From positions 1-33,904 of IMG/VR virus record IMGVR_UViG_3300010885_067899: DNA of 33,904 nt, one strand, 5' to 3'. The position numbers and the translations under genes were made by a program. This document shows positions 7,941 to 30,079 of this stretch, piece by piece (the first letter of the stretch is position 1; every line of letters begins with the position of its first letter). Below the pieces are notes generated by a model that saw only the letters and a list, made by a program, of their open reading frames with translations, did no database searches and was not told the origin of the DNA. This stretch comes from a virus.

Positions 7941-10049
7941 ATGAAAGAGATAAATTTAAATAAAGAAGATAGTGTTAGAATAATTAGTTTATTTAAAGAA
8001 GGTGAATCATTAAGAGGAATTTCCAGGTATACTAAATATTCTCAAACATTTATAACTAACTTTCTAAATAAAGAAGGTTTAATAAATAGTGGTTATGAGA
8101 AAATAAAAAATAGGTTTAAAGAAGATATTAACTATGAAGCTATTTGTAAAAAAACTAAAAAAACATATGATGATTATTTAAACTTATCAGGAAAGCTAAC
8201 AACGCATATAAAAGAAATATATCCTGATTTTGTTTTGGAAAGTAAATTTTTAAGAAAAAAGACAGAGTTAAAAATTGGAAAATTTTGGTATGAAGATTTT
8301 TTCGCAATAAAGGAAAAAATAGAAAAAAATGAACCTACATTAAATTGTTTAATTTGTGATTGGAGTTCTAATGATTTAAACAACCAAGCAGGGTCTTTAA
8401 CAAAACATATAGTAAATACTCACAATATTGATATAGATGAATACTTAAAAAAATTTAATGATCAAGGTTTTCTTTTTAAGACTCATTTATTAAAAAAAGA
8501 AGATAGATTAGAGGTGTTGTCTAAAGGTGAAAACCATATTATTTGTAAAATATGCAATGAACCGCTTAAAAGCATAACAAACACACATTTAAAAAAACAT
8601 GGCATTTCTATAAAAAAATACAAAAAAATTTTTGGAGAAACTATTAATTCAGAAAGTACAATAAATAAGTTAAAGCTAAATTCTGGTAATTTTAATAATT
8701 TTAAATTTAAAAACACAAAAATAGAAATACTTATTTCAAATAAATTAAGTGAATTAAAAATAGACTTTATACCCCAAAAACAATCAGACGGTTATGTTTA
8801 TGATTTTTTCATTCCAGAATATAGTTTATTCATAGAATGTGATGGTATTTTTTGGCATGGACATGATAGAGATTCAAATTGGCATTATTCTGTCTTTAAT
8901 AATGTGATTAATGATTATAGAAAAACCATAATAAAACCAAAAAATAAAATATATAGATTAATAGAAGATATTTCTATAAACGAAAACAATTTAAAAAATA
9001 TAAATTCTAAAGATGAGTTTTTTAATTTTTTAATTAAGGAAAATTTCAACATAGAAAATCATACTATTTTTAATTTAAAAGAAAATGTGTCTATTTTTGA
9101 CATAGATAGATGTATTAAGAATAGAGATTTAATTGATGATAAAAATAAAAATAATTTAATACAAAATATTGTTTTTTTGTGGAAAAATTTTTATAATCAT
9201 AATCAGTGTGAAAAATTTTTAGATTTAGACATTAGAAAGGCTGAGTTTAAATTAAAAGGTATATTTTTCAAAGAATTTTATATTGCAAAAAAAATAGGAA
9301 ATAAAAACATAGATGATTTTTTTAATAATGATAATGATGAAATATTAAAAAAAACTGTTGAATATAGATTGGGTTTTAATAATTCAAATGAGTATTTTGA
9401 TTTAAATATAAAAAATCTATATAGAGGCTTGGAAGTTAGAAGCATGTTTAATGTGGGTATATTTTACATAAAACAATCTAAAGAAATATATGAAAAGTAT
9501 ATAGAAAACGAAAATTCAAAAATATATGATCCATTTATAGGGTGGGGTTCTAGACTAACATCTTTAAAAGATTTAATAAAAAATAAAAACTGCAAATATA
9601 TTGGTAATGATATAAATAAAAATCTAAAAATAGGTTATAATAAGCTAATAGATTTAGAATTTGATTTGGAGTCTCATTCTAATATAGACATTAAGTTTAA
9701 AACATCTACTGAGTTAAATTTTGAATTAATTAATAGTATTGATTTTATTTTTACTTCTCCCCCTTTTTATAATGATGAAATTTATTCTTATGATTCATTG
9801 GTATATGAAGATTTAAAAGATTGGGAAGATAATTTATTAACCCCAGTTTTTAATAACTGTTTTTTATATTTAAAAACGAATAGTAGAATAGTTATTGATA
9901 TAAAGGAATTATATACAAATTCTATTTTAAATACATTAGAAAAATCAGGATTTAAAATTGTAGAAATAGAAAACTATAATGTAAGAAAGAGTCATTATAC
10001 AAAAAAAAATACAAAAAAACAGCTACTAATACATGCGGTGAAAATTTAA
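7941..10049 (+). CDS. HTH / zinc finger / Vsr-like nuclease / DNA methyltransferase fusion
   Basis: A 702-residue multidomain protein. Residues about 8-45 look like a helix-turn-helix. Two MucR/Ros-like C2H2 units follow: C136, C139, H156, H161 and C202, C205, H216, H220, each followed by a EYLKKF or KYKKIFG tail. Residues about 258-345 are a Vsr/DUF559-like PD-(D/E)XK nuclease with Y287-D288-F, E299-C-D301-G and W305-H-G-H308. A helical linker leads to a methyltransferase domain with motif I DPFIGWGSRL (530-539), YIGNDIN (553-559) and motif IV TSPPF (605-609), the N4-cytosine/N6-adenine type. All key residues are present. The gene is visibly more AT-rich than the capsid gene before it, has its own host-like promoter and operator repeat, and splits the head and neck genes: signs of acquisition. 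It could be a single-chain restriction-modification enzyme, a homing-type endonuclease with a protective methyltransferase, or a phage DNA-marking enzyme. The domain calls are good; the system-level role is inference. Confidence 0.85.
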   Translation: MKEINLNKEDSVRIISLFKEGESLRGISRYTKYSQTFITNFLNKEGLINSGYEKIKNRFKEDINYEAICKKTKKTYDDYLNLSGKLTTHIKEIYPDFVLESKFLRKKTELKIGKFWYEDFFAIKEKIEKNEPTLNCLICDWSSNDLNNQAGSLTKHIVNTHNIDIDEYLKKFNDQGFLFKTHLLKKEDRLEVLSKGENHIICKICNEPLKSITNTHLKKHGISIKKYKKIFGETINSESTINKLKLNSGNFNNFKFKNTKIEILISNKLSELKIDFIPQKQSDGYVYDFFIPEYSLFIECDGIFWHGHDRDSNWHYSVFNNVINDYRKTIIKPKNKIYRLIEDISINENNLKNINSKDEFFNFLIKENFNIENHTIFNLKENVSIFDIDRCIKNRDLIDDKNKNNLIQNIVFLWKNFYNHNQCEKFLDLDIRKAEFKLKGIFFKEFYIAKKIGNKNIDDFFNNDNDEILKKTVEYRLGFNNSNEYFDLNIKNLYRGLEVRSMFNVGIFYIKQSKEIYEKYIENENSKIYDPFIGWGSRLTSLKDLIKNKNCKYIGNDINKNLKIGYNKLIDLEFDLESHSNIDIKFKTSTELNFELINSIDFIFTSPPFYNDEIYSYDSLVYEDLKDWEDNLLTPVFNNCFLYLKTNSRIVIDIKELYTNSILNTLEKSGFKIVEIENYNVRKSHYTKKNTKKQLLIHAVKI

Positions 10050-10092: not shown

Positions 10093-10098
10093 CCTCTC

Positions 10099-10106
10099 TA
10101 TTTATA
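10099..10106 (+). promoter_or_regulatory. late-promoter-like box TATTTATA
   Basis: CTATTTATA at 10098-10106, 16 nt before the ATG at 10123. A GGAG follows about 12 nt before the start, one of the few Shine-Dalgarno-like sequences in the window, although it is far from the start codon. Confidence 0.55.
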
Positions 10107-10782: not shown

Positions 10783-10784
10783 AC

Positions 10785-10792
10785 TATTTATA
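10785..10792 (+). promoter_or_regulatory. late-promoter-like box TATTTATA
   Basis: CTATTTATA at 10784-10792, just after the previous stop codon and 10 nt before the ATG at 10803. It probably drives the 92-residue gene, gp13 and gp14 together. Confidence 0.6.
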
Positions 10793-12296: not shown

Positions 12297-12866
12297 ATGT
12301 CAGATTTAACAGAAATAGGTAGAAATCCTGAGAATTTTAACTCTCACGAAGCAGTTCCAAAAGGAATTAAACTTTTTTTTGGAGAAAAAGAAGCAAATTT
12401 CTTTTCTGCTACAGGTAGAGAAATAACTGAAAGTGTTCTTCAGGAAAGTTTTCTATTGTATAGAATAGATCTTCAAAAGACAAAGACTCACAAATTATAT
12501 GGTGAGGCAAAAAGAAAAGTATGGCTTCCTGAGATTCAAGTGTTTGGTAGAATAAATTTAGAAACTCAAGACCCTACATATCAAGTTACTGGTGGTATTG
12601 AGAAGAAAGGTTTGGGTAATTTAACTGCACATATCTATATAGAACAACTTGAGGAATTAGGTTTGATTACAAAACAAGAAGGAACAAATGTTATAGTTTC
12701 TGGAATTAAGATGGGACACTTTATTGGTTATAAAGGTCAGTTCTATAAGATTGTTGATGACGGTTACTCTCAAATATCAAATGAATTCTCTTGGGCTGGT
12801 GATAGAAGATTCTTTTTTACTATAAAAGCTGTTGAGGTTGATGAGGATATTTTCCAAGGGAGATAA
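12297..12866 (+). CDS. 14: neck / head completion protein (T4 gp14-like)
   Basis: A 189-residue protein seven bases after gp13. It has HKLYGEAKRKVWLPEIQVFGRINLE in the middle (about 62-88) and a beta-rich C-terminal part ending FFFTIKAVEVDEDIFQGR, similar in layout to T4-like gp14 neck proteins, which have a YGE segment and a strand-rich C-terminus. It is shorter than T4 gp14 (about 256 residues). Gene order 13-14-15 is that of T4. A gene-free 366-base stretch follows directly. The gp14 label leans on context as much as on sequence. Confidence 0.62.
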   Translation: MSDLTEIGRNPENFNSHEAVPKGIKLFFGEKEANFFSATGREITESVLQESFLLYRIDLQKTKTHKLYGEAKRKVWLPEIQVFGRINLETQDPTYQVTGGIEKKGLGNLTAHIYIEQLEELGLITKQEGTNVIVSGIKMGHFIGYKGQFYKIVDDGYSQISNEFSWAGDRRFFFTIKAVEVDEDIFQGR

Positions 12867-13232
12867 TATAGTCTGAACAAAATTATTCTCTTTACTACTA
12901 GTAATATACTTTACTAGAAGTATGGTATTTTACTACCAGTTCTTTAGGTAAAAATTTAAAAACTTGAACGCCCCCCTTACCCCCCAATGGTTTGATAAAC
13001 CCTTGTTTGCCAAGCAAATATGACTATTTCTAGTCAATGAGATAAGAGAGGGTTAACTTTAAAAATTTCTCACCTGATATACTACCATATCCCCAGTGTA
13101 AAACCTCCATATACGAAATCAACGCCCCTAAGAAAAACGAGATATGAAGTAAAAATCCATGACAAATATAATACAAACATTTTTTTATTACAACTTTTTT
13201 GAAACTATTTATTTAAAATAACTACAGAAAGT
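12867..13232 (+). ncRNA. hairpin-rich gene-free region, candidate structured RNA
   Basis: This is the only long gap in the window. I see no convincing reading frame on either strand. It holds a run of short hairpins: 12892-12904 (TTACT/AGTAA), 12906-12923 (ATACTT/AAGTAT), 12923-12938 (TGGTA/TACCA), 12989-13001 (GGTTT/AAACC), 13004-13020 (TGTTTGC/GCAAATA, one wobble), 13021-13036 (TGACTA/TAGTCA, loop TTTC) and 13076-13091 (GATAT/ATATC). A long imperfect A/T helix (12952-12967 with 13053-13068) could enclose the middle group together with two C-runs (CCCCCC at 12971-12976 and 12980-12985). ACTACC recurs at 12931-12938 and 13080-13087. The C-rich content is unlike anything nearby. Transcription direction is not shown. 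It could be a phage ncRNA, a long processed leader or trailer, or a decayed gene. Confidence 0.4.
13206..13213 (+). promoter_or_regulatory. late-promoter-like box TATTTATT
   Basis: CTATTTATT at 13205-13213, 19 nt before the ATG at 13233. It would start a new transcript after the hairpin-rich gap. Confidence 0.5.
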
Positions 13233-13952
13233 ATGTCAATCCTTGATAACATAGGGAAAAATTTGGATAAAGATTTTGAAAATCACAATTATTTGCCTCA
13301 AGGTATTTTCCTAGAAGATATTGATATAGCTATTGTAGATTATATAAAAAATCTGAATTTAACCGTTGAGGATGAGACTGGAAATGAAAAAACAGTTCCT
13401 GTTATATTTTTAGCTCAAGAATTATGGGCTGAAAGAAAAATGAATTGGAAAGATTTTAGATTTGAATATGGAGAAGAGTTGTCAAGACCTTTTATTGCTA
13501 TCGCAAGAAAGACGGTAAAACCTGGAACATCGCCCTTAAAAAGAACAATTCCTATAAAAAGGCAGTTTAAATTTGTTAAAGTTCCAACATTTGACGGAAC
13601 ACTTAAAGGTTATTCTCTATATAAAATACCACAACCTACTTGGGTTGACGTGGAATACGATATGATTTTGGCCGCTTATTATATGGTTGACGTCAATGCT
13701 TACTATGAAAAAGTACTGCGTGACGGATATTCTAATGGTCAAGGATATTTAAATATAAACGGGCATCATATTGCTTCAAAAATATCAGATCCATCACAAA
13801 CATTGCAAGAAGAATTGGCTTCGGAAAAGTTATATCAAGTAATAATACCGATAACAGTTCACGGAAAACTATTAGATCCCTCAAGTTTTGAGAAAGTAAA
13901 CACAATCAATAAGATTTCAATTAAAATTTCTGAGCAAAAAAGTAGGAAATGA
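13233..13952 (+). CDS. 15: tail terminator / sheath stabiliser (T4 gp15-like)
   Basis: A 239-residue protein with no membrane segment. The central part, IPQPTWVDVEYDMILAAYYMVDVNAYYEKVL (about 131-161), resembles the strand-helix region of T4-like gp15, and the C-terminus is beta-rich. T4 gp15 (272 residues) caps the tail tube and sheath and meets the neck proteins gp13/gp14. The location directly after gp13/gp14 and before the tail sheath matches the T4 order 13-14-15-18. It has its own late-type box. The assignment is moderate: a different tail-completion protein is possible. Confidence 0.58.
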   Translation: MSILDNIGKNLDKDFENHNYLPQGIFLEDIDIAIVDYIKNLNLTVEDETGNEKTVPVIFLAQELWAERKMNWKDFRFEYGEELSRPFIAIARKTVKPGTSPLKRTIPIKRQFKFVKVPTFDGTLKGYSLYKIPQPTWVDVEYDMILAAYYMVDVNAYYEKVLRDGYSNGQGYLNINGHHIASKISDPSQTLQEELASEKLYQVIIPITVHGKLLDPSSFEKVNTINKISIKISEQKSRK

Positions 13953-17007: not shown

Positions 17008-17043
17008 GTTAACCAAAAGGAAGATAAAAAAGGTTTTTAATCC

Positions 17044-17051
17044 TATTTATA
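17044..17051 (+). promoter_or_regulatory. late-promoter-like box TATTTATA
   Basis: CTATTTATA at 17043-17051, 16 nt before the fibre gene start at 17068. Confidence 0.55.
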
Positions 17052-19906: not shown

Positions 19907-22672
19907 ATGACTGCAGAATATATATTACAAGAGCGTATAAAGTGCGCAAAAAGCCCTGTCTATTATTTTAACAATTACGGCTACGTCTTTGACGCTATCG
20001 CAAAGAGTGTTAAAAAGATGAAGTGTTTTGAGTATCAAGAAAAGTGCGCTGATATTTTTCACAAAAATCAAAACTCAATAATACTTAAATCGAGACAATG
20101 CCTGCCTGGGGATACTTATGTAGATACACCAGATGGACCAAAGGCAATTAAGGATTTTAAATTTGGAGATGAAGTGTACTCTTATAATTTAATTTCTAAT
20201 GAAGTTGAGGTTGATACAGTTTATGACGCTTGGTGTAGTGGTGATAGACAGTGTGTAAAATTTAAACTCCAGGATACAAGAAATTTTGAGACTGGAGAGA
20301 ATCACCCATTTTATGTAAAAAACAAAGGTTGGGTTAAAGCTAAAGATCTTCAAAGAGGTGATGAGATTATTGATGCTAATTTTGGATTTGGTGATGTGAT
20401 TGCCAATGAAGATGAAATAAAGATACTTGCATACTTAATTACAGATGGAAGCACAGGTAAGCAAGTTAAGTTTACAAATAATAATATTAATTATTTAGGT
20501 GAATTTGAAGAATCAATAAATAATGTATTTCCAGAATTATCGGTAAGAAAGTCTATAAAATTGAACGGATATGATTATTTTCCACACCAAAAGCATGGGA
20601 CAAGCTTAAAGAATCCTATAATGGAGTGGTGTGAAACAAAAGAAATAGCAAATAAAAAAACTGAATTTAAACTTTTACCTAAAGAAGTTTTTAGTTGGAA
20701 TAAAAAATCTGTTTCAATTTTAATAAATAGACTTTTTGCTGGAGATGGATGGGTTAGTATTTATAAAAAGGGTGAAAATAGTAAAAGATTAGAATTAGGA
20801 ATAGCATCTCCAAGCGAAGAGTTCCTACATCAAGTTAAGTCTCTACTTAAAAAGTTTGATATTAAATGCAACATTTATGAAGTAAAAAATATGAAATTGC
20901 AAAAAAACAAATTTTTTAAACTTAGAATTACTCATTCGAAGAGCGCTACAAGATTTGTTAAAAACATAGGAATATTTGATAAGATAACACAAGAACATCA
21001 CGATATTTGTGATAGTTATAAGCACAATGTAAAAGACAATCCAATTATTAAAAAGATTGAAAAAACTGTAGTTAAAAAGTGTTACGACATTTCTGTAAGT
21101 AAAAATGAAAATTTCTTTATAGACGGATTACTTACTCATAATACTGGTTTATCTGTAATTACAGCAGGATATGTCGCTTGGAGATTAATGTTTAGATATG
21201 ATGAAAAGATATTAATTATTGCCAATGATGGAGCAGGAGCTAAACGATTTTTAGCGACTGTTAAACAATTTGTCGAGCACACTCCTTCGTGGCTCAAGCC
21301 CGAATCTATAGTGACAAACAATCAAACAAAATTAGAATTCTCTAACAAGTCTTGGGTTGAAGCAAAAGCAAGTAGTCCAAATGCAGGTCGTGGAGAATCT
21401 TTAACAATGCTTGTTCTTGATGAGACTGCTTTTATTAAAGATGCTGAAGCAATTTGGATGGCGGCAGGTATGGCACTTTCTGCCACAAAAGGTAAGTGTA
21501 TAATGATTTCAACTCCAAATGGTACGGGTAATTTATATCATAAAACTTGGGTGGGCACGACCAATAAGAAGAATGACTTTATTCCTTTAACAGTGCATTG
21601 GACACAAAACCCACAATCATCTGTAGGTTTGCAAATAAACACAAATATTAACGGAGAAGAGTTCCCTTGGAGTCCTTGGTATGAAGAGCAATGTAGACGA
21701 ATGAGTTATGATAGCGTTAAGATTGCACAAGAGCTTGACCTTTCATTCGAGGGTTCAAAATACCTTGTGATTGAACAGCAACTCATAGACAAGTACGAAA
21801 AGAGAGTAAGAGATCAAAAGCCAAACTTTTATATTAAATACGACTTTAATCTTAAAGATACACCTCAGTCTGGAAGTTTTATAATAGATGAAACCGCTTT
21901 CCAAGTTTGGAAAAGACCTGAAGAAGGAAAGAATTATATTATTGGGGCTGACGTTGCCCGTGGAGACGGAAAAGATTTCTCCACAATTCAAGTATTAGAT
22001 GCTGAAACATTAGAGCAAGTTGCTGAATATAGAGATAAGATTGGAGTGGATTTATTTCCATATTTAATTGATTGGGTAGGAAGAGCTTATAATAATGCAT
22101 ATTTAGTTGTCGAATGTAACTCTTTCGGTTTACACGTCGCCTTGACACTAAGGGATGCGCTCCAATATAAGAAAATGTTCTTTTCTAAAAATGTCCAAGA
22201 TATTCACGTTAGACCTTTCGATTATAAGATTAACGAAGGAACTGAAATTCCAGGATTTCAAACAACAATGAAAACAAGACCGCTTATTGTCGCCTCTATG
22301 ATACAGCACATGAGAGAAAACAATCTGATTTTACATTCCCCACGACTTACTGCTGAATTTTCAACATTTGTTATGATTAATAATAAGCCTCAACACGAGC
22401 CAGGATTTCACGATGACTTGATATTTGCATTAGGGCTGGCGCTATATGTAAGAGATAATGAATACAATAATATCATTGCAACAGATGGTCTTTATAAATC
22501 AATGCTTGGCGCTATATCGTTTAGCTCAAATAATATGATGGGTAAAATAGAGCATAATGGGCAAAGTGGTAGAAAAGATATTGAAGTGCCCGATGGCGGA
22601 AGTGGCTTGTTTATGGGCTCATCTTTCACGCAATCAGATGATGATGATTTAGATTGGCTTCTAAAACCTTAA
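19907..22672 (+). CDS. 17: terminase large subunit (T4 gp17) with intein
   Basis: A 921-residue precursor. Exteins 1-64 and 413-921 join to a 573-residue terminase. The ATPase P-loop is split: SRQ (62-64) before and TGLS (413-416) after the intein, giving SRQTGLS after splicing. Walker B with catalytic Glu is LTMLVLDETAF. The C-terminal RNase H-fold nuclease has GADVARGDGKD, VVECNSFG and HDDLIFAL with the acidic residues in place. The protein pumps DNA into the prohead through the portal (next gene) and cuts concatemers. The intein runs from C65 to N412. Splicing is needed for activity, because the P-loop is interrupted. No small terminase gene is seen in the window. A late-type box inside an inverted repeat lies directly upstream. 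Confidence 0.95.
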   Translation: MTAEYILQERIKCAKSPVYYFNNYGYVFDAIAKSVKKMKCFEYQEKCADIFHKNQNSIILKSRQCLPGDTYVDTPDGPKAIKDFKFGDEVYSYNLISNEVEVDTVYDAWCSGDRQCVKFKLQDTRNFETGENHPFYVKNKGWVKAKDLQRGDEIIDANFGFGDVIANEDEIKILAYLITDGSTGKQVKFTNNNINYLGEFEESINNVFPELSVRKSIKLNGYDYFPHQKHGTSLKNPIMEWCETKEIANKKTEFKLLPKEVFSWNKKSVSILINRLFAGDGWVSIYKKGENSKRLELGIASPSEEFLHQVKSLLKKFDIKCNIYEVKNMKLQKNKFFKLRITHSKSATRFVKNIGIFDKITQEHHDICDSYKHNVKDNPIIKKIEKTVVKKCYDISVSKNENFFIDGLLTHNTGLSVITAGYVAWRLMFRYDEKILIIANDGAGAKRFLATVKQFVEHTPSWLKPESIVTNNQTKLEFSNKSWVEAKASSPNAGRGESLTMLVLDETAFIKDAEAIWMAAGMALSATKGKCIMISTPNGTGNLYHKTWVGTTNKKNDFIPLTVHWTQNPQSSVGLQINTNINGEEFPWSPWYEEQCRRMSYDSVKIAQELDLSFEGSKYLVIEQQLIDKYEKRVRDQKPNFYIKYDFNLKDTPQSGSFIIDETAFQVWKRPEEGKNYIIGADVARGDGKDFSTIQVLDAETLEQVAEYRDKIGVDLFPYLIDWVGRAYNNAYLVVECNSFGLHVALTLRDALQYKKMFFSKNVQDIHVRPFDYKINEGTEIPGFQTTMKTRPLIVASMIQHMRENNLILHSPRLTAEFSTFVMINNKPQHEPGFHDDLIFALGLALYVRDNEYNNIIATDGLYKSMLGAISFSSNNMMGKIEHNGQSGRKDIEVPDGGSGLFMGSSFTQSDDDDLDWLLKP
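20099..21142 (+). mobile_element. intein with LAGLIDADG homing endonuclease in terminase
   Basis: 348 residues, from C65 (CLPGDTYVDTPDG, block N1) to N412 (FFIDGLLTHN, block C-terminal with penultimate His), followed by Thr413 as +1 nucleophile. Block N3 is GENHPF with H133. Two LAGLIDADG-type helices are visible: ILAYLITDG (173-181) and ILINRLFAGDG (271-281) with the acidic residues D180 and D280, so the endonuclease looks intact. Insertion is exactly in the Walker A motif, a highly conserved target that favours homing. Confidence 0.93.
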
Positions 22673-22721: not shown

Positions 22722-25700
22722 ATGGCTGAAGATAAAAAACCACAGAGTATATTCCAAGGAGTTGTGGATGCGATAAACGGAGGGAAGAAGAAAACCCCTA
22801 CTGCACCTGCTTCTGCGCAATTTGCTCCAAATAAAGCAGATGGTTTAGTCAATAGTGAAAGTCCAATTGAAGAAATGCAACAGCAGTTTTTAGATTGGCA
22901 GGTTAATAAAATCGCACACAACCTTTACACGAGATCAATATATTTTGATACAGATAGAATTAGTGCATACCAAGATTTTAGGGCGATGGATATGTCTCCT
23001 GAAATTGCAGCGGCGCTTAACATCATTCGAGATGAGTGTCTTACGAGAAGTGAAAAAGGTAACATTCTTGAAATTTATTCAGAAAATTCTAGAGTAAAAG
23101 AAATTTTAAAAGATTTATTTGGGAACAGAATCAATGTCGATTACAATCTTAAGCTTTGGATTCGTGATTTAGTTAAATACGGAGATTATTTTGTATTCCT
23201 AGAAATTGATAAAACAGAAGGTATTTATAACTTTCTTTCATTACCAGTTGAAGAAATTCACAGAGAAGAAGCTTATGACGGAAATCCTGAAAGTGTAAGA
23301 TTCCGTTGGGAAACAATGGGTATGTATTTTGAAGATTGGCAAGTTGCTCACTTTAGAATGCTAGAAGACACAAAGAAATTACCTTATGGACGTTCTATTT
23401 TAGATCCTGCCAGAAAGCTTTGGAAACAATTGCAGTTGGCGGAAGATTCTATGTTGGTTTATCGTATCACAAGAGCGCCAGAAAGAAGAGTTTTTTATAT
23501 TGAGGTTGGTAACTTGGGTGATCAAGATGTACAAGGGTATATGATGAAAATCCAAAACCAAATCAAGAAACAACCTGTGGTCGATTCTAGAAATGGTCAA
23601 TATAACCTAAAGTATGACCCAATGAATATCACGGAAGATTACTTCATTCCTATTAGGGGTGATAAATCTTCAAAGATTGATACATTACCAGGCGCCTGTC
23701 TTGCATTAGATACTAAAATTGCATTATTAGATGGAAGAAATTTAGAATTAAGTGAAATTATTAAAGAATGGGATGGTGGAAATAGAAATTTATGGGTTTA
23801 TAGTTGTGATCCTAAGACTGGTGAATTTGCACCAGGAATGATAACGTGGGCAGGAATTACAAGAAAAAACACTGAAGTTTTAAAGCTTACTTTGGATAAT
23901 GGAGAAACAATAACTCTTACTCCTGATCATAAAATGTTAACTAAGTCAGGGAAAAAAGTTGAAGCTCAAAATTTAAAAATAGGAGATTCTTTAATGCCCT
24001 TTAATGTTAAAAAAGAAAATTTATACAAAGGAATTTCAGGATATGAAAAAGACTATGAAATGGTTTATGACAACTTAAAACAAGATTGGGTATGGACTCA
24101 TAGAGTTGTAGCTGATTATTTTAAGGGGAATTTGTGCAAAGAATATGTTTTTAAAGAAGATCAAAAACAAAAAAACGTGCGCCATCATAAAGATTTCAAT
24201 AGGTTTAATAATGCACCATCAAATATTTGTTTTATGGGCTTTTCTGATCATATGAAATTACACTCTGATATGATTCATTTAGCATCAGAAGCATTTTCTA
24301 AAAAATATAATGAAGATGAAAATTTTGCTATAAAAGTGAGAAAAAATCTAGAAATAGGAAATAAAATACATCATACACTTCGAAATAATAATCCTAAATA
24401 TAAAAAATTAGTTGATGAAAATCAAAAAATAGGGATGAAAAAATATTGGAGCAATATTTCAGAAGATGAAAAGATAAATAGAGACAATATAAATAAAATA
24501 AATTTTAAAAAAGGTTCTGATAAATTACAGGATTTATTAAAAGATGATGATTATAAAAAAACTTTTTATGAAAAAACAAGTAAGGCTCTAAAGATAGTAA
24601 AAAACACAAAAGAAAATAAAGAAAGACAATCAAAAATTACAAAAACACAATGGCTAAATGAAAATTTTAGAAATTCTGTTATAGAAAAACAAACAATAAA
24701 ATATTCAGATAATTTATTGAAATTTGTTGTAAATAGATTTAAAGAAGGAATGCCTTCTACGCAAATTTTAAAAGACATAAATGAAGAGGGTTCTGTATTT
24801 ATGTCAGAGTTTGATTCATTAAACGTTTTAAATAAGCAACTTCATAAAATGAAGAATGGATTTACTCACAACAATCTTTCTAAGATGATGATGCATTTTG
24901 GTTATAAAAATTGGAATGATTTTAAGAGTAAAGTAGAGTTTTTTAATCATAAAATAGTTTCTATTGAATGGCTAGAAGAGAAACAGGATACTGGAACAAT
25001 TACAGTTGATGGTAATGAATTATATCATGATTTTCACACATTTGCTCTTACAGCAGGTGTATACAATTTTAATTCTAATATGGGTGATATTCAGGATATT
25101 GAATATCTTCAAAATAAACTTTTTGCATCTCTTCAAGTTCCTAAGGCATATTTGAACTATGCAGAGAACTTACCAGGAGGATCAACTCTTTCTCAGGCAG
25201 ATTTGAGGTTCTCTAGAACAATAAACTCAATTCAAGAAGTTATTTTATTGGAGCTTAGAAGGATTGCAAATATTCACCTTTTCTTCTCAGGTCTTAAAGA
25301 TGAAGTTGATAACTTTACATTAACGCTTACAAATCCTTCCACTCAACAAGAGTTGTTGAAATTGGAAACAATGAAAGCTAGAATGGAAGTGTTTAAAGAA
25401 ATGTACTCTTCTGAATCAAATTCTCCTGTTTCATATACTTGGGCGATGGAAAATCTTCTTGGATTCTCTAAGGCTGAAATTAAGCTTATATTGAAACAGA
25501 AGAAAGTTGAGAAGAAAATATTTGCTGAAATTGATGCATCAGTTGAAACATACAAGAAAATTGGATTGTTTAAAGAACTTGATGATAGATACGAACTTCC
25601 AGGTGCGACTCCTGCTGGTGCAGCTACTACGGGAGAAGAAGGTGGAGCAGGCGGTGGCGGCGGCGGAGCTACAGGCGGTATGGGTAATATAGAGCTCGGA

Positions 25701-26273
25701 AGTCAACTTGGCGGAATGGATGCTGGAGGTGGTGCTGATTTGGGTGGCGCACCTGATGCGGGCGGTGCTGAAGAAGTTCCATTGGCAGAAAATAGAATTG
25801 TAAAGATAAAAAGAGTTTTAGCTGAATCAGATAGAAACGCTGATGATTTATTGCTAGATTTGCTTGGCAATACAGAAGATGCTCCGACCCTAGCTGAAAG
25901 AGAAGAAAATGAAAATAAACTTCTTCATAAAAATAAAAAATTGAATTACAAAATTCAAAAGATGATTGAGAATATTCAGACTAGCTTAGATGACACAAAG
26001 AAAGAGGAAAGAGACGAGAACGAGAAAAAATTCCAAGAGATTAAAACTAAAAATACTTTGTTTGAAAGAAGTGGAATGGTGATTGACAGAACCAATAGCA
26101 TGTTTAAGCACTTAGAAGAAATGATGAGTGGAAATAAAGTGTCTGGTTTTGATGTTGAAAAAGTTGATATTATAAACGAAGAATTTATAGAAGAAGTTGA
26201 ATTGAATGAAGAAATCATAGAAGATATAAATGAAATTCCAAACGAAGATTCAGAAGATAAAACAGAAGAGTAA
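22722..26273 (+). CDS. 20: portal vertex protein (T4 gp20) with intein
   Basis: A 1183-residue precursor; exteins 1-325 and 785-1183 give a 724-residue portal. Family features: QVNKIAHNLYTRSIYFDTDR, the MSPEIAAALNIIRDECLT segment, LPYGRSILDPARKLWKQLQLAEDSMLVYRITRAPERRVFYIEVGNL, and after the intein GDIQDIEYLQNKLFASLQVPKAYLNY. It forms the ring through which DNA is packaged by the terminase encoded just upstream. The C-terminal extension (about 960-1183) has a Gly-rich stretch, then charged coiled-coil sequence, and makes the spliced protein about 200 residues longer than T4 gp20 (524). The intein interrupts the highly conserved DTLPGA/SNMGDI motif. The stop codon overlaps the next start (TAATG). 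Confidence 0.95.
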   Translation: MAEDKKPQSIFQGVVDAINGGKKKTPTAPASAQFAPNKADGLVNSESPIEEMQQQFLDWQVNKIAHNLYTRSIYFDTDRISAYQDFRAMDMSPEIAAALNIIRDECLTRSEKGNILEIYSENSRVKEILKDLFGNRINVDYNLKLWIRDLVKYGDYFVFLEIDKTEGIYNFLSLPVEEIHREEAYDGNPESVRFRWETMGMYFEDWQVAHFRMLEDTKKLPYGRSILDPARKLWKQLQLAEDSMLVYRITRAPERRVFYIEVGNLGDQDVQGYMMKIQNQIKKQPVVDSRNGQYNLKYDPMNITEDYFIPIRGDKSSKIDTLPGACLALDTKIALLDGRNLELSEIIKEWDGGNRNLWVYSCDPKTGEFAPGMITWAGITRKNTEVLKLTLDNGETITLTPDHKMLTKSGKKVEAQNLKIGDSLMPFNVKKENLYKGISGYEKDYEMVYDNLKQDWVWTHRVVADYFKGNLCKEYVFKEDQKQKNVRHHKDFNRFNNAPSNICFMGFSDHMKLHSDMIHLASEAFSKKYNEDENFAIKVRKNLEIGNKIHHTLRNNNPKYKKLVDENQKIGMKKYWSNISEDEKINRDNINKINFKKGSDKLQDLLKDDDYKKTFYEKTSKALKIVKNTKENKERQSKITKTQWLNENFRNSVIEKQTIKYSDNLLKFVVNRFKEGMPSTQILKDINEEGSVFMSEFDSLNVLNKQLHKMKNGFTHNNLSKMMMHFGYKNWNDFKSKVEFFNHKIVSIEWLEEKQDTGTITVDGNELYHDFHTFALTAGVYNFNSNMGDIQDIEYLQNKLFASLQVPKAYLNYAENLPGGSTLSQADLRFSRTINSIQEVILLELRRIANIHLFFSGLKDEVDNFTLTLTNPSTQQELLKLETMKARMEVFKEMYSSESNSPVSYTWAMENLLGFSKAEIKLILKQKKVEKKIFAEIDASVETYKKIGLFKELDDRYELPGATPAGAATTGEEGGAGGGGGGATGGMGNIELGSQLGGMDAGGGADLGGAPDAGGAEEVPLAENRIVKIKRVLAESDRNADDLLLDLLGNTEDAPTLAEREENENKLLHKNKKLNYKIQKMIENIQTSLDDTKKEERDENEKKFQEIKTKNTLFERSGMVIDRTNSMFKHLEEMMSGNKVSGFDVEKVDIINEEFIEEVELNEEIIEDINEIPNEDSEDKTEE
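23697..25073 (+). mobile_element. intein with HNH-type homing endonuclease in portal
   Basis: 459 residues, from C326 (CLALDTKIALLDG) to N784 (GVYNFN), with Ser785 as the +1 residue. Block N3 is TPDHKML with H403. An HNH-like segment, VRHHKDFNRFNNAPSNI with H488/H489, and H510 and H514 in the following GFSDHMKLH, is inside. Later a FKEGMPSTQILKDIN helix-turn-helix-like stretch resembles DNA-binding modules of homing enzymes. The region is markedly more AT-rich than the exteins. The penultimate residue is Phe instead of the usual His. Boundaries were set by matching the joined exteins to the portal motif DTLPGx(S/Q)NxGDI. Confidence 0.88.
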
Positions 26274-26545: not shown

Positions 26546-29500
26546 ATGAGTGAAGTCTGTAATAGTAAAAACTGCAATTGCGGTAAGCAACACATATATA
26601 AAGATGACTTAACAGAGGTAGCTAAAGGCAACCTACATAAGGCTATGGATACTTTTGAAGAGCGAAAGTATGAACTTGGTAATGTGATTAAAGAAGAAGA
26701 CAGAAGAAAGAGACCGATGGTTCATCTTCATCTCCACACATTCCATTCTATATTGGATGGCTGTGGAAGTATCGATAATTATGTAAAGTTAGCCAAAGAA
26801 TATAATCACCCCGCAATTGCTGTAACTGATCACGGAACCTTGTCAGGTACTTATGAATTATTTAAGAAGTGTAAGGCAGGTGGTGTAAAATCCATTATGG
26901 GAATGGAAGCTTATGTGAATGATAAACAGGGTGAATTTGAAGAAAAGAAATACGAGGGTGGAAATTCACACCAATCTATATTTGTTATAAATCAAGAAGG
27001 TTTTGTCAATATCAATAGATTGGCATATCGTTCTTATGATGAGGGTTTTTACAAAAGAGGTAGGATTAAGACAGATTGGTTATTTGAACACAAACAGGGC
27101 TTGTTTCTTACGACTTCTTGCGCCGTTAGTCATATGTCTAAATTGGTATTAGAAGGCAAGGAGACAGAGGCTGAGGAGTACCTGAAAGGTCTTATGAGAG
27201 AGTTTGGTGATAACTTGGTTGCTGAATTACAATTCAATGAGTACGAAGGTCAAAAGTTTTACAATAGATGGCTTTTGAAAATGATTAAAAAGTATAGTCT
27301 TATGCCTATACTTACAAATGATGTTCACTATGCCTTTAAGGAAGATTCGGAACTTCAAGATACGCTCATTGCAATCAATCAAAAGTCAAAACTAGGAAAT
27401 TCATTTAAGCTTAGTACGAGAAATCTTTTTTATGCAAACGTAGATGATTTCCACACTTTCAATAAACAGTTTGGTTTTAACTATCCAGAGTCTTTTGTAG
27501 ATATGTGTTTGGATAATACTCTAAAGGTTGCCGAAAAGTTAAACTACGAATTTGATACAAAGACTGAAAAATTTCCAAGATATGAAGTAACCACCGATGT
27601 GTTGGATTATTTTAAAACTGATAGTACGGAGGAGATTATTACTAGACTTGCCTTTGGAAAGTTAAAACAAAAATTGACTAAGTATAAGGAAAATAAGATT
27701 GTTGAAATTACACCTGAGAAAGAAAAAGAATACCACGACAGATTAACATATGAGCTGGAAGTAATTAGAGAAAAAAATACTCTTGATTACTTTATGGTGT
27801 ATTGGGAGCTTATTAGGGATTATAGGAAGAAAGGGTATAATATTGGCCCATCCAGAGGTTCAGCAGGCGGTTGTCTGCTTTCTTGGTGTTTAGAGATTAC
27901 AGATATTGATCCTATACGATTTGATTTGTATTTTGAGAGATTCTTAAATCCAACTCGTAAAGGTCTCCCCGATATCGATGTTGACTTTATGAAAGGAACG
28001 GATGATGTGACAAATAATTTCTTATATGAGAAATATGGAAAGAATCGTGTTTTGAGTGTTTCCACATTTTCCACGTTTAACGAAAAGGGTTGTCTTAAAG
28101 ATGTTGTTAGAGCTCACTTTGGAGATGAAGAAACAGGTTTTGAATCAGATGTTCACGCAGTTACTAAAGAAATGCCAACCTTTGACAGGGTTGAGTATTC
28201 ATTGGCTGATTGGTTTGAAAAATGGCCTAATGACCCTGCGTGTTCAGATAGAGTAAGAAGATGGCTGACAGATAAAGATAATAGAAAAATACTAGACCAA
28301 ACATTAATGTTGCAAGGTCAAATTAGAGGTATTGGTCAGCACGCAGCAGGTATCGTAATTACACCTGGTCCTTGTTGGGAATATTTACCAACAAACATTA
28401 TCGCCTCAAATAAAAGTATTGTAACAGCATTTCAGGAAGCTGATAAGAGTGGTAAAGATTTGTCAGAGCTCAATATATTGAAGCTAGATAGATTAAAGCT
28501 TGAAACTCTTAACGTAGTTGAAGATACTATAAAAGTTGTAAAAGATAGATATGGAAATGACATTACAGACAAAGTTCGGAATGTAAATTTGAATGATGAA
28601 AATCTATTTATTGAGTTGCGACTTGGGTTAAATCATGGTATTTTTCAGTTTGAAAGCCCAGGAATGAATGCTTTGATTAGAGGTATGGCAACAGAAAGCT
28701 TCTCTGAACTTACGGCAGCCAATGCTTTGTATAGACCAGGACCTATGGGTATTGGTGCTCACGAAGAGTTTATTAAGAACAAATTTAATCCTGAAAACAT
28801 TAAGTATGTTCACCCTGCTCTTGAAACTATTTTGAGAGAAACAAACGGAGTATTAATTTATCAGGAGCAATTGATGTTCTTGGCAAATAAAGTCGGAGGA
28901 ATGAGTTTGGGTGAGGGTGATATGCTTCGTCGATATATGGACAAGGCCAGCTCTGCCATTATGAAAAAATCTTCAGGCGAAACGCTGAACAAAAAAGAGC
29001 AGGATAACTATGTGGAGTTTGAGAAGTATTGGAATAAATTTATTGATGGCGCTGTAAAGAATGGATATAAAGCAGACGAAGTTGATGTGATTAAAGATTG
29101 GGTAATCAAGTATTTGGGATATTCGTTCAACAAGTCGCATTCAACGGCATATGCCTATCTTGCAATGCAAACGCTCTATTTGAAACATTATCACCCAACT
29201 GAATTTTATACAGCACTTCTAAATCATCCTAAGACAAGTGGTGGAAAAGAAAAAGAACAATCTTGGCTTGCATCAGCGATTGCATCGGCAATGTCTAAAG
29301 GAATTGTAATACTACCACCATCTAGAAAATCAGGTTGGACATGGACAGTAACTGGTGAAAAAGAAATATCTATGGGATTCTCAGGGATTAATGGTTTAGG
29401 TGATATAGCCTACCAAGAGTTAATCGAATTGATGGCTAAAAAGAATAAAAATCTTCAGAGCATAAGTGTTTCCGAGTTTTATGACTTACCTTTCTCGAAA

Positions 29501-30079
29501 TTTAATAAGAAGGCTTTTGAGTCTTGTATTAAAGCTGGTGTCTTCGATGAATGGTCTGAGTCTAGAGAGTATTTAATAGCGTTGAGGGAAAAGAAAAAGA
29601 AGAAGGTTGTTGTGGCAAATCAAATCTCTCTTTTTGATATGAGCTCTAAGGAGTTTGATATTAAAACAGATGACATTGGACACCATTTAAAAACAACTGA
29701 AGTTCAGAAAAGAAATGAGTTTATCGAGGTTTGTAATTTTGATTTAGAGAAAATTAGATTTATGCTAAAAATTAAGACTACAATAAATTCAAAGGCCAAA
29801 AAACCATTAGATAACATTATAAACTTTGAAGACGAAGGGTGGTATTTCTTTGTTTTAGAAGAATTTAATACAATGATATCAAAAACAGGAAAGGAGTATT
29901 TGACACTTCGTGTTGGTGATGGAGTAAATAGCACAACATTGAGAGTTTTTGATCCGTTAGCTAAGAAAATAAAACCAGAGATGATGGCAAATGGTGTATA
30001 TGTAGCCAAATTTGAGAAGAATGATAGTGGATTTATTAACTTTGCTAGAAATACGCAATTTAAGAGAGTGGAAATATGA
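26546..30079 (+). CDS. dnaE: DNA polymerase III alpha subunit (DnaE-type replicase)
   Basis: A 1177-residue family C DNA polymerase. An N-terminal stretch with Cys5, Cys10 and Cys12 precedes the PHP domain, whose metal-site motifs are all present: HLHLHTFHS (60-68), TDHG (94-97), GMEAYV and LTNDVHY, so it may still be a proofreading nuclease. The polymerase core has GPSRGSAGG, PDIDVDF (475-481) with D476 and D478, and LKLDRLKLETL with D648, the three expected catalytic aspartates. A clamp-binding peptide QISLF lies at 1026-1030, followed by an OB-like C-terminal domain. It probably replicates the phage genome using a host or phage sliding clamp. It overlaps the RNase H gene by 4 nt. T4 itself uses a family B polymerase, so this is a different replication module. 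Confidence 0.95.
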   Translation: MSEVCNSKNCNCGKQHIYKDDLTEVAKGNLHKAMDTFEERKYELGNVIKEEDRRKRPMVHLHLHTFHSILDGCGSIDNYVKLAKEYNHPAIAVTDHGTLSGTYELFKKCKAGGVKSIMGMEAYVNDKQGEFEEKKYEGGNSHQSIFVINQEGFVNINRLAYRSYDEGFYKRGRIKTDWLFEHKQGLFLTTSCAVSHMSKLVLEGKETEAEEYLKGLMREFGDNLVAELQFNEYEGQKFYNRWLLKMIKKYSLMPILTNDVHYAFKEDSELQDTLIAINQKSKLGNSFKLSTRNLFYANVDDFHTFNKQFGFNYPESFVDMCLDNTLKVAEKLNYEFDTKTEKFPRYEVTTDVLDYFKTDSTEEIITRLAFGKLKQKLTKYKENKIVEITPEKEKEYHDRLTYELEVIREKNTLDYFMVYWELIRDYRKKGYNIGPSRGSAGGCLLSWCLEITDIDPIRFDLYFERFLNPTRKGLPDIDVDFMKGTDDVTNNFLYEKYGKNRVLSVSTFSTFNEKGCLKDVVRAHFGDEETGFESDVHAVTKEMPTFDRVEYSLADWFEKWPNDPACSDRVRRWLTDKDNRKILDQTLMLQGQIRGIGQHAAGIVITPGPCWEYLPTNIIASNKSIVTAFQEADKSGKDLSELNILKLDRLKLETLNVVEDTIKVVKDRYGNDITDKVRNVNLNDENLFIELRLGLNHGIFQFESPGMNALIRGMATESFSELTAANALYRPGPMGIGAHEEFIKNKFNPENIKYVHPALETILRETNGVLIYQEQLMFLANKVGGMSLGEGDMLRRYMDKASSAIMKKSSGETLNKKEQDNYVEFEKYWNKFIDGAVKNGYKADEVDVIKDWVIKYLGYSFNKSHSTAYAYLAMQTLYLKHYHPTEFYTALLNHPKTSGGKEKEQSWLASAIASAMSKGIVILPPSRKSGWTWTVTGEKEISMGFSGINGLGDIAYQELIELMAKKNKNLQSISVSEFYDLPFSKFNKKAFESCIKAGVFDEWSESREYLIALREKKKKKVVVANQISLFDMSSKEFDIKTDDIGHHLKTTEVQKRNEFIEVCNFDLEKIRFMLKIKTTINSKAKKPLDNIINFEDEGWYFFVLEEFNTMISKTGKEYLTLRVGDGVNSTTLRVFDPLAKKIKPEMMANGVYVAKFEKNDSGFINFARNTQFKRVEI

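Follow-up and report, generated by a model that had tools for sequence, protein, structure and literature searches.

The locus and its neighbouring genes

The DNA stretch analysed here (33,904 nucleotides (nt), hereafter the window) comprises positions 1 to 33,904 of IMG/VR virus record IMGVR_UViG_3300010885_067899. Its T4-like virion gene cluster contains, between a gp14-like and a gp15-like open reading frame (ORF), a gap at exactly 12867-13232 that runs from the gp14-like stop to the gp15-like ATG. The names gp14 and gp15 rest on position, as a head–tail adaptor match (phrog_211) lies upstream and the tail sheath downstream, and neither flanking protein has a PHROG or Pfam family match. A preliminary description, made from the sequence alone, had placed a ‘candidate novel structured RNA’ between these genes; the ORF boundaries agree with that placement, and the RNA itself is backed by minus-strand folding against dinucleotide shuffles and by compensatory changes among relatives. 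We conclude with high confidence that an independent structured noncoding RNA gene occupies the gap, encoded on the minus strand, present in single copy and tied to this locus.

A structured RNA on the minus strand

Relative to shuffled controls, the full gap folds with a z score of -3.36 on the minus strand and -1.00 on the plus strand, a 265-nt core with z = -4.0 and -2.55 respectively, and the central junction alone with z = -4.5. The preliminary expectation of better-than-shuffled folding thus holds for the minus strand and fails for the plus strand, on which the whole gap is not significantly structured. Two further observations assign the RNA to the minus strand, opposite to gp14 and gp15: in group A, the window's close group, the consensus fold energy is -38.9 for the minus strand versus -14.3 for the plus strand, and helix P2 is maintained there via C-G to U-G exchanges that would break it on the opposite strand.

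Covariation supports the helices. Across 22 sequences P1 is 84.1% paired, as against 65.3% in shuffles and at most 49% in slid controls, and its covariation score is 0.626 (shuffles 0.308, slid controls 0.12-0.20). In group B, 8 of 12 pairs of P2 have changes on both sides, and the whole RNA (nine sequences) comprises seven helices with 43 pairs, 24 of which changed on both sides; five of the seven helices contain several such pairs. In this group 95.5% of cells are paired, a level reached by none of 500 shuffles and compared with at most 47% in slid controls, although the figure is somewhat favoured because one member served in part to define the structure. The shuffles ignore relatedness while the slid controls keep it, and the margin is large.

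The gap does not appear to be coding: no frame is conserved on either strand, as had been proposed, most indels among close relatives have lengths that are not divisible by three, and a conserved small protein was looked for in the gap and not found. Conserved secondary structure with compensatory changes and the absence of a conserved reading frame are therefore both features of this locus, as expected of an independent noncoding RNA gene.

The small hairpins of the preliminary description, given in plus-strand coordinates with no strand named, are all present in the gap, including two that abut each other (13004-13020, TGTTTGC/GCAAATA, and 13021-13036, TGACTA/TAGTCA). Its long imperfect helix, pairing 12952-12967 with 13053-13068, also forms, and proves to be the outer extension of the conserved helix P2. 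Similarly, the C-runs noted there are indeed unlike the rest of the window, CCCCCNNNCCCCC occurring once in 33.9 kb with a shuffling expectation of 0.00. P1 and its conserved loop (13105-13149), which are promoter-proximal and among the most conserved parts of the RNA, lie outside the features described at that time. We infer a 5′ end at about 13155-13160 and a 3′ end at about 12893-12910, and a length of roughly 260-300 nt (Table 1).

Table 1. Predicted RNA gene, its parts and the flanking elements in the window.
Feature	Position	Strand	Evidence or remark
gp14-like ORF	12297-12866	+	Named by position
AT-rich hairpin between gp14 and RNA	12893..12922	.	dG -8.7, z = -2.1
Predicted RNA gene	12893..13158	-	Fold z = -4.0, covariation, single copy, no conserved frame
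Tag 2, copy 2, UGGUAGU	12932..12938	-	Repeat of copy 1; varies jointly with it
P2 outer extension, 3′ side (half of the long helix)	12952..12967	-	Minus-strand fold
Tag 1, copy 2, GGGGCGUUC	12966..12974	-	Direct repeat D5; covaries with copy 1
P2 3′ arm, two G-runs, GGGGGGUAAGGGGGG	12971..12985	-	C-G to U-G changes, group A
Third central hairpin, CAAGGGUUU/AAACCAUUG, inside P2	12985..13005	-	Fold and group A consensus
Central hairpin UAUUUGC/GCAAACA, inside P2	13004..13020	-	Fold and group A consensus
Central hairpin UGACUA/UAGUCA, inside P2	13021..13036	-	Fold and group A consensus
P2 5′ arm, CCCUCUCUUAUCUC	13039..13052	-	Paired in minus-strand fold and consensus
P2 outer extension, 5′ side (other half of the long helix)	13053..13068	-	Minus-strand fold
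Tag 2, copy 1, UGGUAGU	13081..13087	-	Conserved; varies jointly with copy 2
CACUG after P1	13094..13098	-	Conservation
P1 3′ arm, AUAUGGAG	13105..13112	-	Covariation with 5′ arm, 22 sequences
Tag 1, copy 1, GGGGCGUUG, P1 loop	13120..13128	-	Nearly invariant among close relatives; covaries with copy 2
P1 5′ arm, CUUCAUAU	13142..13149	-	8/8 pairs changed on both sides, 22 sequences
Putative -7 element, TATATTTG (TAnnTTTG, Bacteroidota type)	13163..13170	-	In nearly all relatives
Putative -33 element, TTG, 20 nt upstream of -7	13191..13193	-	Conserved, similar spacing
CTATTTAT element upstream of gp15, outside RNA	13205..13212	+	Also 12-30 nt before many structural genes
gp15-like ORF	13233-13952	+	Named by position

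Distribution and family status

Relatives were gathered from IMG/VR through gp14 and gp15 and with a gp15 profile (50 loci). None of the 44 relatives with both flanking genes (gp15 identity 45-97%) has a gap below 301 bases, including those at 45-50% gp15 identity. The same RNA is carried by most of the 44, a protein gene takes its place in few, and some of the longer gaps contain extra genes. Retention of the RNA, even where the flanking protein has diverged to 45-50% identity, suggests a function important enough to keep. Specifically, the RNA is absent and a minus-strand protein gene occupies its position in six relatives (L080, L082, L085, L086, L087 and L088); the frame in L086 (2135-2908, minus strand) encodes 257 amino acids with a helix-turn-helix look, and those in the other five are similar.

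Cultured phages offered no carrier. A nucleotide search with the gap against INPHARED phages gave nothing convincing and no nucleotide relative, and the RNA locus is missing from both cultured relatives examined: the apparent gap of Flavobacterium phage immuto is filled by an unannotated gp14-like frame, and Microcystis phage Mel-JY01 lacks the gap. In immuto (MW353176.1, 133210-133640; L140, 18323-18753) two tiny minus-strand genes are annotated where the plus-strand gp14-like frame was apparently missed.

The Rfam search that the preliminary description had suggested returned no match at the gathering score of Rfam 15 for the window and 15 relatives, and relaxed-threshold scans gave chance-level matches together with one sub-threshold match in the divergent relative L007 (Betaproteobacteria-1 RNA, RF02932, E = 0.0066, at 2684-2786 on the minus strand of a 591-base gap). 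A cobalamin-riboswitch-like string in group B was set aside, having no Rfam support, and a search of the window for transfer RNA (tRNA) and transfer-messenger RNA genes found none. A pattern built on the P1 loop matched 18 IMG/VR stretches, and those not already known were all in the same gap; its sole GTDB match (Pseudoalteromonas) lies in coding sequence and looks like chance, and a second pattern for the loop, drawn more generally, revealed no further contexts. Similarly, a covariance model of module 1, the half of the RNA that includes P1, had a single strong match in the window and a single one in each of 11 relatives, all of them at this locus, and only weak matches elsewhere. The alignment makes this RNA family searchable. 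No phage RNA of such description was found in the open-access literature searched, and the gene is undescribed in the collections and open-access papers covered; it may be described elsewhere.

A host-type promoter motif

Upstream of the RNA, the minus strand carries the motif TTG-N20-TATATTTG, which is present in nearly all relatives and fits the Bacteroidota -33/-7 promoter consensus quoted in PMC7366714. We regard this conserved motif as the putative promoter of the RNA gene itself. The hosts are probably Bacteroidota, in view of the type of promoter and because the nearest cultured relatives by capsid include Flavobacterium phages.

A different element, CTATTTAT, precedes gp15. In five records it stands upstream of 61 ORFs versus nine in a control stretch. 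Most of these sites lie 12-30 nt ahead of a structural gene, as is the case for gp15; since it takes the coding orientation at this distance from structural genes, the element belongs to gp15. For the same reason a role as late promoter for the RNA was rejected for the minus-strand sequence ATAAATAG beside gp15. The CTATTTAT motif looks late-promoter-like or translation-related. The form CTATTTAT(A) is also found in coding orientation at 2921-2929, 10098-10106, 10784-10792, 17043-17051 and other places, and it is the reverse complement of the T4 late promoter core TATAAATA. Because the RNA has a host-type motif while the structural genes carry CTATTTAT, it is plausible that the RNA is made early by the host RNA polymerase, with gp15 being expressed from a separate element of its own. 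The host-type promoter points to an early role.

These elements bear on three further explanations. First, the locus might act in cis only, as a terminator or insulation region or as a decayed intron or mobile element. The AT-rich hairpin after gp14 (a possible two-way terminator, weak and missed by a consensus terminator scan), the promoter-like motif that gp15 has for itself and the extra genes at this place in some relatives would all suit such an element; however, seven helices, conserved loops and a conserved promoter far exceed the needs of insulation, there is no intron family match in Rfam, and decay would not maintain pairing, so that we consider a purely cis-acting element very improbable. 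Second, the RNA might serve the virion or packaging in the manner of the phi29 packaging RNA (pRNA), being encoded beside neck genes and among virion genes in all relatives. A promoter of host type instead of the structural-gene motif, and no Rfam match to phage pRNA, make this highly unlikely. Third, a 6S-like decoy, binding the polymerase of the host and contributing to host transcription shut-off, would agree with the early expression suggested by the promoter and with the existence of 6S RNA in Bacteroidota (PMC7366714). Yet instead of one long hairpin with a bubble at its centre the RNA has two modules and a branched central domain; it also has no Rfam match to 6S, and we give this explanation very little credence.

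Twin tags that change together

The RNA can be read as two similar modules with nearly the same two-part sequence. In module 1 the P1 loop bears GGGGCGUUG, followed by CACUGG and then UGGUAGU, while in module 2 two G-runs with GGGGCGUU are followed by CCUAA and again UGGUAGU; the G-run sequence is here called tag 1 and UGGUAGU tag 2. The tag copies of other lineages are unlike those of the window and like each other, as in L095 (GGGGGCTTGG and GGGGGGCTTGG) and L077 (GGGTGTTG and GGGGGGTGTTG), or identical to each other, as in L029 (TGCAA and TGCAA). Over 18 lineages, matched tag pairs outscore mismatched ones for both tags (6.7 versus 4.7; 0 of 20000 permutations), and permutation of seven representatives gave 5/5040 and 11/5040, p-values that are optimistic in both tests because the tag windows were picked by eye. 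The module 1 model weakly detects module 2 in two genomes, and tag 1 is nearly absent elsewhere in the phage records examined.

Since both copies of a tag differ in step from one lineage to the next, they probably bind one common partner. Gene conversion between the modules could also produce joint change, and is less likely because the stems surrounding the tags differ. The covarying tags provide a direct handle for a partner search.

That partner could be a nucleic acid. The tags of a base-pairing or guide RNA would pair with a complementary DNA or RNA target, holding two target copies together or directing an enzyme, as the bipartite loops of bridge RNAs do, and twin copies of a two-part tag, one of them in an exposed loop, covary here as guides to one target would. 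However, in 11 related records (fragments) GGGGCGTTG occurs in the RNA gene and elsewhere only once clearly, at an extra site in G004; AACGCCC is confined to the RNA gene within the window; and neither an IS110 recombinase nor a TnpB-like nuclease was found in 22 records, mostly fragments. A guide function is thus unlikely.

The G-runs could instead mark a primer or R-loop RNA at a replication origin, where a G-rich transcript stays on its C-rich template and is extended by DNA polymerase, as in mitochondrial conserved sequence block II (CSB II) or plasmid ColE1 RNA II; the RNA of one tag copy would then pair with the template of the other, hence their covariation. Two transcript G-runs are found in most members, their G residues are kept although the opposite U or C would also allow A, and the host-type promoter upstream and the fixed genomic place would serve an origin well. 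In contrast, five long records show no GC-skew turn at the locus, the skew tracking coding direction, although this alone is not decisive; the G-runs lie within a covarying RNA helix, and some relatives have a protein gene at the locus instead. We therefore judge an origin function, and with it this account of the tags, to be distinctly improbable.

A tentative model for the RNA

We tentatively favour an early, bivalent, trans-acting RNA that binds protein; its timing, its bivalence and the protein nature of its partner are our inferences. In this model the host RNA polymerase would transcribe the RNA early in infection, module 1 would show the G-run tag in a hairpin loop and module 2 would carry its copy at the base of helix P2, with the second tag, UGGUAGU, after the G-run tag in each module. 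Both tag copies would bind the same partner, most likely a dimeric protein, and the RNA may thus be a bivalent trans-acting scaffold or decoy. With similar reserve, we suggest that it could represent a new class of bivalent phage RNA. Its twin two-part tags would coevolve with a single partner, whether a protein or a nucleic-acid target, a host promoter would drive its expression as infection starts, and it would hold one genomic place across a lineage of T4-like phages whose hosts are probably Bacteroidota.

Several observations weigh against this interpretation, as does the choice of tag windows already described. A TTG-N-TAnnTTTG motif lies upstream of 10 of 381 ORFs versus five in the control, which is no clear enrichment, so that the early timing is argued by analogy to the host consensus. 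Distant members are scored weakly by the covariance model (E 0.02-0.4), so that for these the argument relies on their position, on the promoter and on those elements that can be seen in them. The terminator scan found no canonical terminator for the RNA in the window and no consistent one among relatives, which leaves the 3′ end uncertain. Finally, the same 22 records contain no general partner gene: a TROVE/Ro60 protein, the Y RNA partner, is present in one and so is not general, and reverse transcriptase (the partner of retron or diversity-generating retroelement RNAs), IS110 (DEDD) recombinase and the TnpB-like zinc-ribbon domain are each present in none, IscB not having been searched for. 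The single TROVE/Ro60 protein is encoded in a 372-kb relative (G017:C1:83831-84688, minus strand).

Other features of the window

Elsewhere in the window, a 702-amino-acid ORF just after the major head protein (7941-10049, plus strand) has Vsr-like endonuclease, ROS/MUCR zinc finger and methyltransferase-like matches and looks like a free-standing mobile endonuclease. The terminase-like and portal-like ORFs (19907-22672 and 22722-26273, both plus strand) have apparent intein-like insertions, read by eye (CLPGDTYVDT...HN and CLALDTKIAL...HN). A bacterial-type DNA polymerase III alpha subunit (phrog_405; 26546-30079, plus strand) occurs amid the T4-like virion genes.

Comparison with known RNAs

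To our knowledge, T4 has no conserved structured noncoding gene at the gp14/gp15 position, and a strongly structured, conserved noncoding gene inside a T4-like virion cluster is unexpected. Phage T4 does encode the stable RNAs C and D, which are small, of unknown function and located in its tRNA region. They resemble the RNA described here as small RNAs of a T4-type phage whose function is unknown, but the present RNA differs in its place, on the opposite strand in the gap that separates gp14 from gp15. With CSB II and ColE1 RNA II it shares paired transcript G-runs over a C-rich template strand; unlike in those systems, the G-runs here form a covarying helix and there is no skew turn at the locus.

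Among structured RNAs of phages and prophages, GOLLD and ROOL are likewise noncoding and of unknown function (PMC12286853), and in this they are like the present phage-encoded RNA. In contrast, they exceed 600-800 nt and often lie near tRNA islands, whereas the present RNA is far shorter, is located in a virion cluster of a window with no tRNA and has no Rfam match. In the bridge RNAs of IS110 elements a bipartite recognition sequence lies in each of two loops or modules (PMC11208160), an arrangement similar to the two modules with two-part sequences found here; unlike bridge RNAs, the present RNA carries nearly the same tags in both modules and has no IS110 recombinase in the 22 records. The 6S RNA, likewise small and structured, is expressed in Bacteroidota hosts (PMC7366714); it differs in architecture, and again there is no Rfam match. 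The general kind, a phage structured noncoding RNA of unknown function, is thus already known, whereas we know of no precedent for its twin-tag design or for its locus.
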